Source: Riemerella anatipestifer (GTDB lineage: Bacteria > Bacteroidota > Bacteroidia > Flavobacteriales > Weeksellaceae). From it: DNA of 64,000 nucleotides. The stretch is taken from contig NZ_CP142016.1 of the NCBI RefSeq assembly GCF_035666175.1, positions 2,294,001-2,358,000 of the forward strand, given 5' to 3'. Numbering within the stretch: position 1 is the stretch's first letter; each line of letters starts with the position of its first letter. The position numbers and the translations under genes are program-made. Of this stretch, positions 11,032-60,070 are shown in pieces. The notes below the pieces were generated by a model that saw only the letters and a list, made by a program, of their open reading frames with translations, was not told the DNA's origin and searched no databases.

Positions 11032-11036
11032 TGCAA

Positions 11037-11120
11037 ACAAAAGCACGGGGTGCCGTTATGGCTGAGATTATACCCGATACCTGATTTGGATAATGCCAAC
11101 GTAGGGATTGCAATGTGAAT
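11037..11120 (+). ncRNA. TPP riboswitch (THI element)
   Basis: The conserved THI-box blocks are present in order: GGGGTGCC (11047-11054), GGCTGAGAT (11060-11068), TACCCG, ACCTGATTTGGATAATGCCA and CGTAGGGA. These are the pyrimidine- and diphosphate-sensing arms of the thiamine pyrophosphate aptamer. No rho-independent terminator follows. The expression platform is therefore probably at translation start, where GAGG at 11161-11164 precedes the ATG at 11167. It should shut the downstream genes off when TPP is plentiful. Confidence 0.93.
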
Positions 11121-11166
11121 CTTTGTATATTTTCAATTCTATACTTGTCGCATTTTTCATGAGGTT

Positions 11167-11907
11167 ATGCTAAAAAACAAGTATATGAAAATGGAAAAAT
11201 TCTCAACAGGATTGATTCCTCTGAATCATCAAAACTGGCAAGGTAGACCAGAGTGGTTTTTTAATCGTGAACATACAGATACCTATGAGTTGTGGTATGA
11301 AGGACGCTACAAACGAGCAGAAATTTGGCAGAAAAAGGTCATGGAGCACTTGATAACCAAAGATAGGCGTGTGAAAACATTGCTGGAGTTTGGTTGTGGA
11401 ACGGGACGATTTACCCGTTGGTGGAAAAAAATAGGAATTGAAGCTACAGGAGGAGATATTTCCCCACTGATGTTGTCGCAAGCTAAACATCTTTTTGGTG
11501 GAGATTTAGTAATGGCAGATTCACATAATATGCCTTTTAAAGACAATACCTTTGATGCACTCGCTTTCATCACCACTTTTGAGTATTATAAAGATCCAGT
11601 TAAGGTTATTAGAGAGGCGGCTAGGGTAAGTAGATATGGTATTGCTATGGGGATGATGAATAGATATTCTACCAAAGTTATTAGGAGGAGAATTCAGCAG
11701 ATTTTTGGCAAAAATCCATTTTATATAACGGCTACATTTTATTCACCTAAAATGCTGATGAGTATTATTGATGAAGCACTTAAAGGCAGAGAATATACGA
11801 TTGAGTGGAAATGTACAGGATTGCCTCAATGGTTTCCGATACAGCAATGGGAAGTGCCGTTTGGAGATTTTTTCGGATTATACATACAGTTTAAAGATGT
11901 GGATTAA
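11167..11907 (+). CDS. Class I SAM-dependent methyltransferase, TPP-riboswitch operon
   Basis: 246 residues. It has a UbiE/Methyltransf_11-like fold: motif I LLEFGCGTGRFTRWW (about 76-90), acidic ribose-binding D in GGDISPLML, and a post-motif region DNTFDALAFITTFEYY. The substrate is not recognisable. The ATG at 11167 follows a GAGG; other in-frame ATGs lie at 11185 and 11191. It is the first gene after the thiamine riboswitch, and its stop codon abuts the ATG of the next gene with no gap. A Trm112-like small protein, a type of methyltransferase activator, is encoded three genes downstream. No methyltransferase belongs to the standard thiamine pathway, so its role here is open. Confidence 0.8.
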   Translation: MLKNKYMKMEKFSTGLIPLNHQNWQGRPEWFFNREHTDTYELWYEGRYKRAEIWQKKVMEHLITKDRRVKTLLEFGCGTGRFTRWWKKIGIEATGGDISPLMLSQAKHLFGGDLVMADSHNMPFKDNTFDALAFITTFEYYKDPVKVIREAARVSRYGIAMGMMNRYSTKVIRRRIQQIFGKNPFYITATFYSPKMLMSIIDEALKGREYTIEWKCTGLPQWFPIQQWEVPFGDFFGLYIQFKDVD

Positions 11908-18530: not shown

Positions 18531-18604
18531 GATCCGGTAGTTCAGCTGGTTAGAATACCTGCCTGTCACGCAGGTGGTCGCGGGTTCGAGCCCCGTCCGG
18601 ATCG
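18531..18604 (+). tRNA. tRNA-Asp (GTC), copy 1
   Basis: A 74-nt cloverleaf. The acceptor arm is GATCCGG with CCGGATC, the anticodon loop CTGTCAC gives GTC, and the T arm contains GGTTCGAGCC. CCA is not encoded and must be added after transcription. Confidence 0.96.
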
Positions 18605-18624
18605 CTTTTTTATAACTTTTTTCT

Positions 18625-18698
18625 GATCCGGTAGTTCAGCTGGTTAGAATACCTGCCTGTCACGCAGGTGGTCGCGGGTTCGAGCCCCGTCCGGATCG
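18625..18698 (+). tRNA. tRNA-Asp (GTC), copy 2
   Basis: Identical in all 74 nt to the copy at 18531, separated by a 20-nt A/T-rich spacer. The two are evidently co-transcribed, with one promoter upstream and one terminator downstream. Confidence 0.96.
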
Positions 18699-18714
18699 CA
18701 GTATTTATGGTTAG

Positions 18715-32109: not shown

Positions 32110-32230
32110 AAAGATTTAGTTTTTAGATGTTAGTTGTTAATGTTTGGTGGCTATTAGAGGTTGGAGGTTGGTCTTAAGGGCTGATGAGGCTATACTAAGT
32201 TCTAATCTCTCATATCTAACCTCTAACCTT

Positions 32231-32630
32231 AAAAAACGCCTTCCCTCTCTAAACACACACAAAACGAGAGGAAAGGCTAAAGCAGAAAGAAAGCAAAAAC
32301 TCCCTTTCTGAACACTAAAAGCACCCAACAAGAACGACCATGTTATTAGACAAAACAATGGTGCTTTTAGTAGATATTGATGAAAGCTAAAATTAGAATA
32401 GTATAAACACGAAAAGCCACCAACGAAGATTGGCAGAACGGTATTTTGGTTTAACGATAAAAGTCTAAATAATCGGACACATACCCACGAAACTACTTTG
32501 TGTGTGTGTTTACACAATTATTTGGAACTACCAAATTTTTGTGTAGTTTTTTTGCATTTTCTTGTATGTAATTGATATGGTGCAGCATAAATATGAAGCA
32601 AACTTATAACCTTTTGTTAAAGTACACAAG
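32231..32630 (-). ncRNA. Leader A: promoter and structured leader ending in a terminator-like hairpin
   Basis: Homologous to leader B (57932-58332) but on the opposite strand. Promoter: TTG (32628-32630), 20-bp spacer, TAAGTTTG (32600-32607). Further conserved blocks are a palindrome (32513-32543), a (CA)5 tract, CTAAAAGCACC pairing with GGTGCTTTTAG, a CAGAAAG/CTTTCTG hairpin, and GCCTTTCCTCTC pairing with GAGAGGGAAGGC before T6 (32231-32277). From the inferred start near 32594 the RNA to the T-run is about 364 nt. The HU start codon is about 120 nt further on. No convincing protein is encoded in 32110-32701. Confidence 0.65.
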
Positions 32631-57931: not shown

Positions 57932-58332
57932 TTGCACACTTCTACAAAAGGTTATAAGTTTGCCTTAGTTTTATGACACGCTATATCAGTAACATACAAA
58001 CAAGTGTAAAAAAGTACCACAATTATTTGGAACTACCAAATAATTGTGTAAACACACACACACACAGGTAGTTTCGTGGGTATGCGTCCGACTATTTAGC
58101 AAATTCTTTAGACTTTTATCGTTAATAATAAATAGAGTTCCGCCAACTTTTATTGGGGGCTTTTGGTATTTATATCATTCTAAATTTAGCTTTCATACTT
58201 ACTTGCTAAAAGCGTCTCATAACATGGTCGTTCTTGTTAGGTGCTTTTAGTGTTCAGGGGGAGCGTTACGCTCTTTCTGTTTTAGCCTTCCTCCTCGTTT
58301 TGTGTGTGTTGAGAGGGGGGAGGCGTTTTTTT
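57932..58332 (+). ncRNA. Leader B: promoter and structured leader ending in a terminator-like hairpin
   Basis: Homologous to leader A on the other strand. Promoter: TTG (57932-57934), 20-bp spacer, TAAGTTTG (57955-57962). Then a palindrome (58018-58048) with arms CACAATTATTTGG and CCAAATAATTGTG, a (CA)7 tract (58052-58066), CTAAAAGCG facing TGCTTTTAG, a CAGGGGGAGCG/CGCTCTTTCTG hairpin, and GCCTTCCTCCTC facing GAGAGGGGGGAGGC before T7 (58285-58332). The RNA from about 57968 to the T-run would be about 365 nt, virtually the same as in A. The surface-protein start lies 139 nt further on. No convincing protein is encoded in 57838-58471. Confidence 0.65.
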
Positions 58333-58471
58333 AGGGTAGAGGATAGATTTCAGAGTTTAGAATTTAGTATAGCCTCATCAACCCTTAAACCGAACCTCCC
58401 AACCTCTAAAATCCAATATCTAACCTCTATAATCTTAAACAATTAAATATCAACTTTTAAAATTAAACATT

Positions 58472-60070
58472 ATGACAACAAAGATTACAAAATTAAGTGT
58501 GTTAGCCTTTTTAGGACTAGGGCTAACAGTTTATGGGCAAAGTGGAAAGGTGGGGATTAACACTGATAAACCTGCGGCCACCTTAGAAATACAACCTAGC
58601 ACGGTTAACTTAGCTGGAACAACTAATGAAGGAATTTTAGCTCCTAAGTTGAGTAAAACCCGTGTGGCAAGTATTGAAACACCTGTAGAGGGAACCTTAG
58701 TCTATGTAATAGATGATGCTACTAAAACTAATGGGGCTATAAGTAATTATACAGGCAATGATACTAAAGTGGCTAAAATCACAGAAAAAGGTTACTATTA
58801 TTATAATGGTGTGGAATGGATAAAAAGTAAAAATAATGTGGAAGGACTATGGAAATATACTCAAAATACACAAGAAAGTTCCGTAAATGGTAGTACATCA
58901 AAAGATGAATATGCTCTAATACCATCATCTACGAACAATAACAAATATAGAATAATAGCTTCAGTTGGAGAAAATATTAATAACAAAACTCAGTTGAAAA
59001 GCTATGAAGGTAGATTAACTGTTTTCAACTATTTAGAAGATGGTACAGAAAGTTCGAGTACAACTTTAAGAACAGGAGGTTTAGAAATTTACAGAGGAGT
59101 TAGTGAAGTTTCTCAAACAACGCTAGGGTATATTGATTTTAAAAACAATATAGATATATATAACACAAGATTAAGAGCAGTAGACTTTTTGGCAGACACC
59201 GATACTTCAAACGATGATAAAAATAAAGCTTTGCGTTTGGAAAGTATGGATACAGCTAATGGCAATACATTTACTTTTGAGGTAAATGGAAGAGAAACAA
59301 CATTTTCTAATCCCAATTATATTTATTCTTTTGGAAAAAAAGGAGCTACATTAAAATCTCTAAAATCTGTCGAATCTAATTCTATAGGAAACTATATATA
59401 CCATAGAATGTATGTAAAAACAGGAAAAGAAGACACAGGTAATAGTTCTTTTATTGATTGGTCAATGAATAGATTTAAGGAAACTATAGATCCCACTCAG
59501 GACTGGGAAGGTACGGTTAATCGTCTTCAAAAAAGTATTGATGAAAGAAAAATGGGATTTATAGACTTTGGAATAAGCAATAATAGTTATAACGATATAT
59601 TGGATAATAATGGTCTTGGATTTGGATATAATGAGACCGTTCATGCTGTAATTAGAGAAAATGGCAATGTAGGTATAGGGATAACAACTCCATCAGAAAA
59701 ATTAGAAGTAATAGGAAATATAAAAGCAAATACATTTATTGCTAGTAATGGTAATACTTTCCCAGATTATGTGTTCCAAAAGTATTACACAGGAGCCTCT
59801 AGCATTAAAGCGGATTATAGCTTTAAAACCCTTAGCCAAGTGGAAGATTTTGTAAAAGCTAATGGACATTTGCCAGGGTATCAATCTGCAGAAGCTATCA
59901 AAAAACAAGGTTATATAGACCTTATGGCAACTCAACTCACCAATGTGGAGAAGATAGAGGAACTTTATCTACACAGCATAGAGCAAGACAAGGCTCTAAA
60001 AGCTAAAGATGCTAAAATAGCAGAATTAGAAGCTCGTTTACAGAAGCTAGAAGCCTTATTAGTAAAATAA
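58472..60070 (+). CDS. Surface protein B with conserved ends and variable centre
   Basis: 532 residues. Signal peptide LSVLAFLGLGLTVYGQ, conserved N-terminal region SGKVGINTDKPAATLEIQP through KGYYYYNGVEWIKS, and a divergent centre (about 125-410) unlike that of protein A. A tail-fibre-like GNVGIGITTPSEKLEVIGNIKA follows, then the conserved C-terminal module (FPDYVFQKYYTGASSIKADYS, HLPGYQSAEAIKKQGYIDLM) and a coiled coil. DNA identity to A in the C-terminal module is high, far higher than in the centre. It directly follows leader B and precedes the HU/DUF4469 gene by 24 bp. Confidence 0.85.
   Translation: MTTKITKLSVLAFLGLGLTVYGQSGKVGINTDKPAATLEIQPSTVNLAGTTNEGILAPKLSKTRVASIETPVEGTLVYVIDDATKTNGAISNYTGNDTKVAKITEKGYYYYNGVEWIKSKNNVEGLWKYTQNTQESSVNGSTSKDEYALIPSSTNNNKYRIIASVGENINNKTQLKSYEGRLTVFNYLEDGTESSSTTLRTGGLEIYRGVSEVSQTTLGYIDFKNNIDIYNTRLRAVDFLADTDTSNDDKNKALRLESMDTANGNTFTFEVNGRETTFSNPNYIYSFGKKGATLKSLKSVESNSIGNYIYHRMYVKTGKEDTGNSSFIDWSMNRFKETIDPTQDWEGTVNRLQKSIDERKMGFIDFGISNNSYNDILDNNGLGFGYNETVHAVIRENGNVGIGITTPSEKLEVIGNIKANTFIASNGNTFPDYVFQKYYTGASSIKADYSFKTLSQVEDFVKANGHLPGYQSAEAIKKQGYIDLMATQLTNVEKIEELYLHSIEQDKALKAKDAKIAELEARLQKLEALLVK

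Follow-up and report, generated by a model that had tools for sequence, protein, structure and literature searches.

What does a structured leader, with its own promoter and a terminator-like hairpin, do in front of the surface-protein genes of the duck pathogen Riemerella anatipestifer? The stretch analysed here (the window, 64,000 nucleotides of contig NZ_CP142016.1) carries two such leaders, copy A on the minus and copy B on the plus strand, which an earlier note had read as a conserved RNA and as either an attenuator or a free regulatory RNA. Overlooked there was a reading frame inside the leader that enters an AC microsatellite. We consider it very likely, judging from the sequences, that the number of repeats sets this leader frame, which is predicted to switch the downstream surface-protein and HU-like genes by phase-variable, translation-dependent attenuation. 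The phase that keeps the frame open is called ON here, and the two that close it OFF.

The two leaders in the window

Both leaders lie where they had been placed, are 76% identical across the 411-base query and share a promoter; we take the leader promoters to follow the Bacteroidota -33/-7 consensus. From the terminator end to the first start codon are 139 nt in copy B and 121 nt in copy A, matching the distance given by the earlier note. Its description of the leaders as standing in front of surface-protein cassettes holds directly for copy B, while copy A precedes an HU-HIG gene and has the surface gene second. The 532-aa surface-type protein has no match in Pfam or NCBIfam and the 599-aa protein none in Pfam. 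Both copies are in the OFF phase. The stop codon of copy A's long frame begins 30 nt 5' of the HU-HIG start; the H2 region of copy B is without 11 nt that copy A has, and this gap also breaks its long frame.

Table 1. Parts of leaders A and B and the genes behind them, in window positions.
Feature	Position	Strand	Basis or remark
Copy B promoter: TTG 57932-57934, 20 nt, TAAGTTTG 57955-57962	57932..57962	+	sequence; assumed Bacteroidota -33/-7 type
Copy B leader ORF in its present phase (predicted OFF), 32 codons, stop just past AC tract	57973..58071	+	
Copy B (AC)7 tract	58052..58065	+	
Copy B hairpin H1	58140..58159	+	consensus helix 1
Copy B hairpin H2	58206..58250	+	alignment
Copy B hairpin H3	58255..58279	+	consensus helix 3
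Copy B intrinsic terminator, GTGTGTGT loop at 58302-58309	58285..58332	+	consensus helix 4 and sequence
Surface-type protein, 532 aa, signal-like N-terminus, VGINT start	58472..60070	+	3' of copy B
HU-DNA_bdg + DUF4469 protein, 239 aa	60095..60814	+	domain match
Copy A promoter: TTG 32629-32627, 20 nt, TAAGTTTG 32606-32599	32599..32629	-	sequence
Copy A leader ORF in its present phase (predicted OFF), 31 codons	32493..32588	-	
Copy A (AC)5 tract	32500..32509	-	
Copy A long frame, open from tract through H1-H3 and terminator	32137..32499	-	
Copy A hairpin H1	32417..32436	-	fold/covariation
Copy A hairpin H2	32315..32370	-	fold/covariation
Copy A hairpin H3	32283..32310	-	fold/covariation
Copy A intrinsic terminator, -20.1 kcal/mol, within long frame	32231..32277	-	folding
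HU-HIG DNA-binding protein, 127 aa	31726..32109	-	PF18291, E 3.2e-34
Surface-type protein, 599 aa	29758..31557	-	

The spacers between terminator and gene (58333-58471 and 32110-32230) hold partly self-complementary purine-rich repeats of AGAGGTTAGATAT versus ATATCTAACCTCT types, differing between the copies; they possibly form a second hairpin 5' of the start codon. Elsewhere in the window are a TPP riboswitch (11036-11125, plus strand), just 5' of an ORF at 11167, and two tandem tRNA-Asp genes with identical anticodon (18531-18699).

Copy number and downstream genes

The leader had been thought to be present twice, which proved wrong. Copy B matches 27 places in the window's genome (2.57 Mb, two contigs) at E <= 1.4e-17, plus one partial place at 1.2e-11, dispersed over both strands; since two copies are each split over two places, these represent 26 distinct copies, 24 of which have the leader start. 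One split copy (L054, G000:C1:1975695-1977141) has its two parts separated by an insertion of about 1 kb, and the other consists of two adjacent matches. Further homologues, for which the earlier note had proposed a search, are numerous in R. anatipestifer CCUG25054 as well (31 leader loci). Homologues of the frame past the tract come from R. anatipestifer, both from the CCUG25054 loci and from hypothetical proteins of other strains, and ON-phase proteins are present in other assemblies (P0004, an R. anatipestifer hypothetical protein, and P0002, an unnamed NCBI entry). The AC-tract form of the leader is uncommon within the family, its motif occurring in 8 of 246 genomes drawn from Weeksellaceae. 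Copy B found no relative in plasmid and phage collections, nor did the long-frame alignment among viral contigs. The view that no described RNA family fits holds for Rfam 15, which gave no leader match at gathering scores and nothing relevant at E <= 1 (the top weak match for copy B scored 27.7 bits against a cut-off of 99).

At most loci the genes behind the leader belong to a few recurring classes. They encode proteins that begin with a signal-like segment and contain a VGINT motif (weak FISUMP matches under the family cut-off occur in some), or else HU-HIG or HU-DUF4469 DNA-binding proteins; the arrangement is surface gene then HU gene, or HU-HIG gene then surface gene. L103 precedes another kind of gene. 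At 8 of the 26 own-genome loci (L031, L035, L036, L037, L041, L043, L044 and L051) the downstream genes contain, or have close by, an insertion sequence with a 292-aa transposase (MNNIEQIYERILEVLG..).

A reading frame open through the terminator

When the copies are aligned in one orientation, an ATG common to them lies about 10 nt 3' of a TAnnTTTG box. Of 25 own-genome copies 24 have this box, and in 23 of these the spacer to the ATG is 10 nt; only 20 of 30 CCUG25054 copies match it, with spacers of 8-10 nt. Because the ATG follows the -7 box so closely, the leader RNA probably has almost no 5' untranslated part. The encoded peptide reads roughly M....I(Q)..VKK..L.VPNN(C/F)VNTHTH up to the (AC)n tract, beyond which one frame continues without a stop across the hairpins and the terminator. 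The two others close after a few codons, which for most R. anatipestifer copies means about 2 and 11-14 codons past the tract. The value of n therefore selects between two short peptides and one long one.

The long frame extends at least 60 codons past the tract in 90 of 97 scored copies from six genomes (78 of 85 in five genomes and 12 of 12 in the sixth), with medians of 5-11 codons for the other two frames in the five-genome set; as the copies are paralogues, such counts are not independent. Scoring covered 10 of 13 places in G029, 10 of 14 in G003, 11 of 12 in G033 and 12 of 12 in G076, with G001 (26 matches), G002 and G004 outside the five-genome scoring; L130 and L133 were dropped at contig ends, and L114, without a tract of three or more repeats, fell outside the set. 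The tracts of L145 and L021 were placed wrongly or at a decayed site and the counts were kept (L145 otherwise has a 92-codon frame). In nearly all intact copies the longest frame exceeds chance (P < 0.05, dinucleotide-preserving shuffles), the misses being decayed, truncated or mis-assigned (L017, L019, L024, L097, L118, L145). Decay is seen in L001 (copy B of the window), L017, L019, L021 and L024.

Both end motifs occur in 46 Riemerella copies. Between the tract and the LVLCV motif of the terminator, 43 of them have an open frame; the others are L001 with its 11-nt gap, L017 with one stop, and L021. The LVLCV pattern missed nine loci, three of which (L002, L005 and L018) are open and lie outside the substitution tests. 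A tree built from the 43 copies found open yielded 660 substitution events. For the long frame 4 nonsense changes were reconstructed, against 26.2 ± 5.1 expected, and for the other frames the numbers were near expectation (22 vs 19.9 and 23 vs 21.8). This is an approximately six-fold depletion in the long frame only, somewhat overstated by a set chosen for openness, to which the excluded copies could add few events. Most alignment gaps from the tract to the terminator span 3, 12 or 21 columns, the exceptions being copy B (11 columns) and L053 (one column near the tract); L033 has one extra base in a terminator arm. Median pairwise dN/dS is 0.64 in the long frame versus 0.85 and 0.89 in the others. 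As read from these substitutions, the long frame is under weak amino-acid constraint and strong constraint on openness.

The distance from the end of the long frame to the next start has a median of 30 nt and falls between -10 and 60 nt in 33 of the 45 copies with a recognised downstream ORF. At L102, L104, L185 and L196 the long frame runs stop-free into the surface protein, so that the ON phase there would give a fusion or send ribosomes directly into the gene.

Could the peptide itself be what is selected? On such an account the ON-phase product of about 130-190 aa would be a phase-variable small protein and the terminator merely its end signal. Start, tract and long frame do form a single ORF, the lower dN/dS speaks for weak amino-acid constraint, and proteins of this kind stand in databases as hypothetical. 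The frame, however, passes the terminator to end beside the downstream start, the long-frame proteins of two other genera are unlike those of Riemerella beyond the tract, conservation follows the RNA pairs, and in the four loci just named and in four G006 copies the frame enters the surface gene. We regard a small protein as the main product as very unlikely.

RNA structure and the terminator loop

A consensus fold of 45 Riemerella sequences contains 39 pairs in four helices, with 98.9% of cells pairing; hairpins H1-H3 precede helix 4, the terminator. A test for covariation, which the earlier note had called for, found two-sided changes in 11 pairs, against a shuffle mean of 7.2; none of 500 shuffles reached that number. 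When the partners were offset by 1-3 columns, pairing fell to 51-62%, and further pair types gave a weak signal (37 vs 34.9, reached by 22 of 500 shuffles). The CAGAAAG/CTTTCTG hairpin, singled out before for its paired changes, stood up in the same alignment: 98.0% of its cells pair, with two-sided changes in 4 of 10 pairs. The alignment was made without L019, L026 and L097 (decayed or divergent), L021, L022, L024, L028 and L115 (no loop motif in range) and L096, L099 and L107 (N runs).

Folding and covariation were used for the terminators because a simple scanner, limited to loops of 8, lists neither window terminator, both of which have larger loops. By folding, 19 of 26 own-genome copies and 28 of 30 CCUG25054 copies have within the long frame a terminator with an energy of -15 to -22 kcal/mol. 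No stretch of the region is more conserved than the terminator loop (GTTTTGTGTGTGTTTA), which has a mean entropy of 0.014 over 11 columns, the lowest of 240 windows, versus 0.60 at other unpaired columns. This loop (GUGUGUGU) is complementary to the AC tract and pairs with TAAACACACAC there in a predicted duplex of -16.7 kcal/mol. In all 11 G033 copies the terminator has a different stem and the same TGTGTGTGTT loop. Loop conservation, complementarity and the retention of the loop on another stem together speak in favour of the AC tract pairing with the terminator loop. Pairing that helps termination is a simpler fit than pairing that hinders it, because the tract would be free of ribosomes in the OFF phase. 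The consensus fold shows only local hairpins and no antiterminator helix, in a non-exhaustive sampling of alternatives.

The earlier idea of a purely structural RNA is incomplete in that the same region is a conserved open frame. In the case of a free regulatory RNA, short terminated transcripts would act in trans as a multi-copy sRNA. Covarying hairpins ending in a terminator, repeated about 26-31 times per genome, would suit it, and the OFF phase would yield a short terminated RNA anyway; yet it leaves the open frame, the nonsense depletion and the tract unexplained, and the same gene classes stand behind most leaders, making a role in trans highly improbable as the main function.

Variation and phase of the AC tract

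Tract length ranges from n = 3 to 26 in CCUG25054 and reaches 24 in the intact copies of the window's genome; two partial copies there have longer tracts, one of them measured across interruptions, and the overall range is n = 3 to about 40, with the proviso that assemblies may misstate tract lengths. All 12 tracts of at least eight AC units found by pattern in the 2.57-Mb genome sit in leader copies. Length differs at each of the 12 orthologous loci with a tract in both Riemerella genomes, where orthology was judged from the upstream flanks (87-99% identity), which leaves room for an exchange of whole leaders; at a thirteenth locus (L021) the own-genome tract has decayed. Near-identical leaders within one genome also differ in tract length. 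In many copies n is only 3-5, and tracts of this length may seldom slip.

The ON phase was found in 14 of 89 phased long-frame copies (binomial test against 1/3, P = 2.7e-4), or in 12 of 87 (P = 5.3e-5) when two N-bearing copies are set aside; the P values are only a guide since the copies are related. The share is uneven, at 5 of 12 in G076 versus 9 of 77 elsewhere. Two of the ON calls (L099 and L107) have N right after the tract. Three own-genome copies are ON: L012, L023 and L022, the last of them truncated.

Near-identical leaders at different loci, and the position of some G003 copies at contig ends, would also be expected if the leader were a recombination platform that mainly shuffles surface cassettes, with expression control secondary. 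Recombination alone, however, would neither keep a frame open nor place the terminator in it, and we give this account as little credence as a free RNA.

Leaders in other lineages

In G003 (of the same genus as Riemerella), G029, G033 and G076 (of the genus of G033) the layout is kept and the sequence past the tract is largely unrelated. BLASTP of Riemerella long-frame proteins against those of G033 and of G029 (two pairs tested) found no similarity past the tract. Contigs and proteins of G033 match Weeksellaceae bacterium TAE3-ERU29. Folding finds terminators in G033 and G076 too; a folding scan gave no convincing terminator in any of 10 G029 copies, where the simple scanner gives one weak candidate (L117), nor in 6 of 8 G003 copies, among which L131 and L135 carry a GU run. 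The G033 leaders (L137-L147) have the GU-loop terminator about 220-260 nt past the tract, and in 9 of the 11 copies the strongest terminator-like hairpin lies about 120 nt past it, also within the long frame.

G006 has four near-identical leaders in which a CTTC repeat replaces AC, and one divergent copy without the CTTC repeat. The four (L200-L203; leader at about 1490-1930 of the oriented locus) all have four CTTC units. In these 4 of the 5 leader copies, an alternative frame enters a VGINT/FISUMP surface gene and meets no stop before the retrieved sequence of the locus ends (517 codons). Terminators of -44.5 and -50.7 kcal/mol were found in two of three folded copies. The least probable account is an amino-acid attenuator of the his/thr leader kind, in which stalling on the Thr-His repeat encoded by the tract senses starvation: the leader peptide does read ..NTHTHTHTH and a stalled ribosome would also mask tract-loop pairing, but the tract is a dinucleotide repeat with few interruptions, the stop is set by phase and not by the peptide, the CTTC repeats of G006 lack His, and the consensus fold is without an alternative antiterminator helix.

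A model of phase-variable attenuation

For repeat-set attenuation we propose the following sequence of events. Slipped-strand mispairing probably alters tract length. In two of the three phases ribosomes would leave the RNA early and RNA polymerase would stop at the terminator (OFF). In the third, the leading ribosome on the long frame would melt the hairpin, polymerase would read through, and the translating ribosome would end close to the next start codon (ON). The least certain step of the model is a possible reinforcement of the OFF state by the exposed AC tract, through base pairing with the GU-repeat loop of the terminator. The attenuator offered as one option in the earlier note fits this evidence; the override now proposed is a ribosome on a frame through the terminator, set by AC number.

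Each locus would switch on its own and probably at random, and if this is correct, some 25-30 independent switches would let a population hold many surface combinations, of which a genome assembly shows one phase per locus. Typing of AC-tract lengths would then read the predicted ON/OFF state of a strain. The model offers a testable mechanism for surface variation in Riemerella, and the complementarity of tract and terminator loop would be a new RNA feature. A broader reading is possible, though we consider it less likely than not: a genome-wide surface-diversity machine in Weeksellaceae with about 10-30 independent leader switches per genome, in which the microsatellite doubles as a frame selector in DNA and a strand that locks OFF in RNA through the GUGUGUGU loop, and in which the repeat unit is exchangeable between genera (AC or CTTC), the circuit being inherited rather than the sequence.

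Comparison with known systems

In Neisseria and Haemophilus, repeats inside genes give translational phase variation, repeat number setting the frame. The leaders described here are alike in that respect and differ in that the repeat belongs to a leader of its own 5' of the gene, and control is predicted at a transcription terminator. Attenuators of the trp/his type likewise combine a leader peptide with a terminator; unlike these, our leaders show no antiterminator helix in the consensus fold.

Searches of open-access text found no report of phase variation or of this leader mechanism in Riemerella. The text of PMC4335342 on R. anatipestifer CH3, as far as available, has the relevant words only within a cited title, and the accessible portion of PMC6421346 mentions the gene family only. 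Closer to our findings is Ornithobacterium hominis, also of the Weeksellaceae, for which repeated 450-bp 'noncoding' sequences at FISUMP-domain genes (PMC10353427) and a 'putative phase variation mechanism' (PMC13183296) are described in the accessible parts of these papers. The repeated sequences at FISUMP genes and the suspected phase variation are shared with our leaders; the accessible text gives no mechanism and calls the sequence noncoding (PMC10353427), whereas the leader here has a reading frame. Variation of such loci has thus already been proposed in the family. The searches of open-access text found no account of the mechanism, of the Riemerella repertoire or of the tract-loop complementarity.

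The closest mechanistic parallel is the pil1 locus of Streptococcus gallolyticus, where, according to the available text, repeat-dependent leader-peptide attenuation has been demonstrated by experiment for GCAGA repeats and deletion of the terminator locks expression high (PMC3894217). Features by which a pil1-type leader can be recognised in sequence, namely a leader ORF with a repeat, a terminator, alternative frames and a variable repeat, are present in our leaders, apart from the terminator in G029 and in 6 of 8 G003 copies, where folding found none that convinces. As the accessible parts of that report describe pil1 and pil3, the repeat lies in the leader ORF, a short peptide ends ahead of the terminator, the frameshifted long one reaches into the terminator or past it, and surface structures are encoded downstream (PMC3894217), as they are here. 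By comparison with the same text, our leaders differ in their AC dinucleotide (CTTC in G006), in their occurrence in Bacteroidota and in their 26-31 copies per Riemerella genome; the long frame usually ends near the next gene, and the start codon is close to the promoter. Three extra covarying hairpins, a repeat-complementary terminator loop and HU-like genes in the cassettes set them further apart from pil1 and pil3 (PMC3894217). Our data thus suggest that a control circuit known in a streptococcus exists in another phylum, multiplied.
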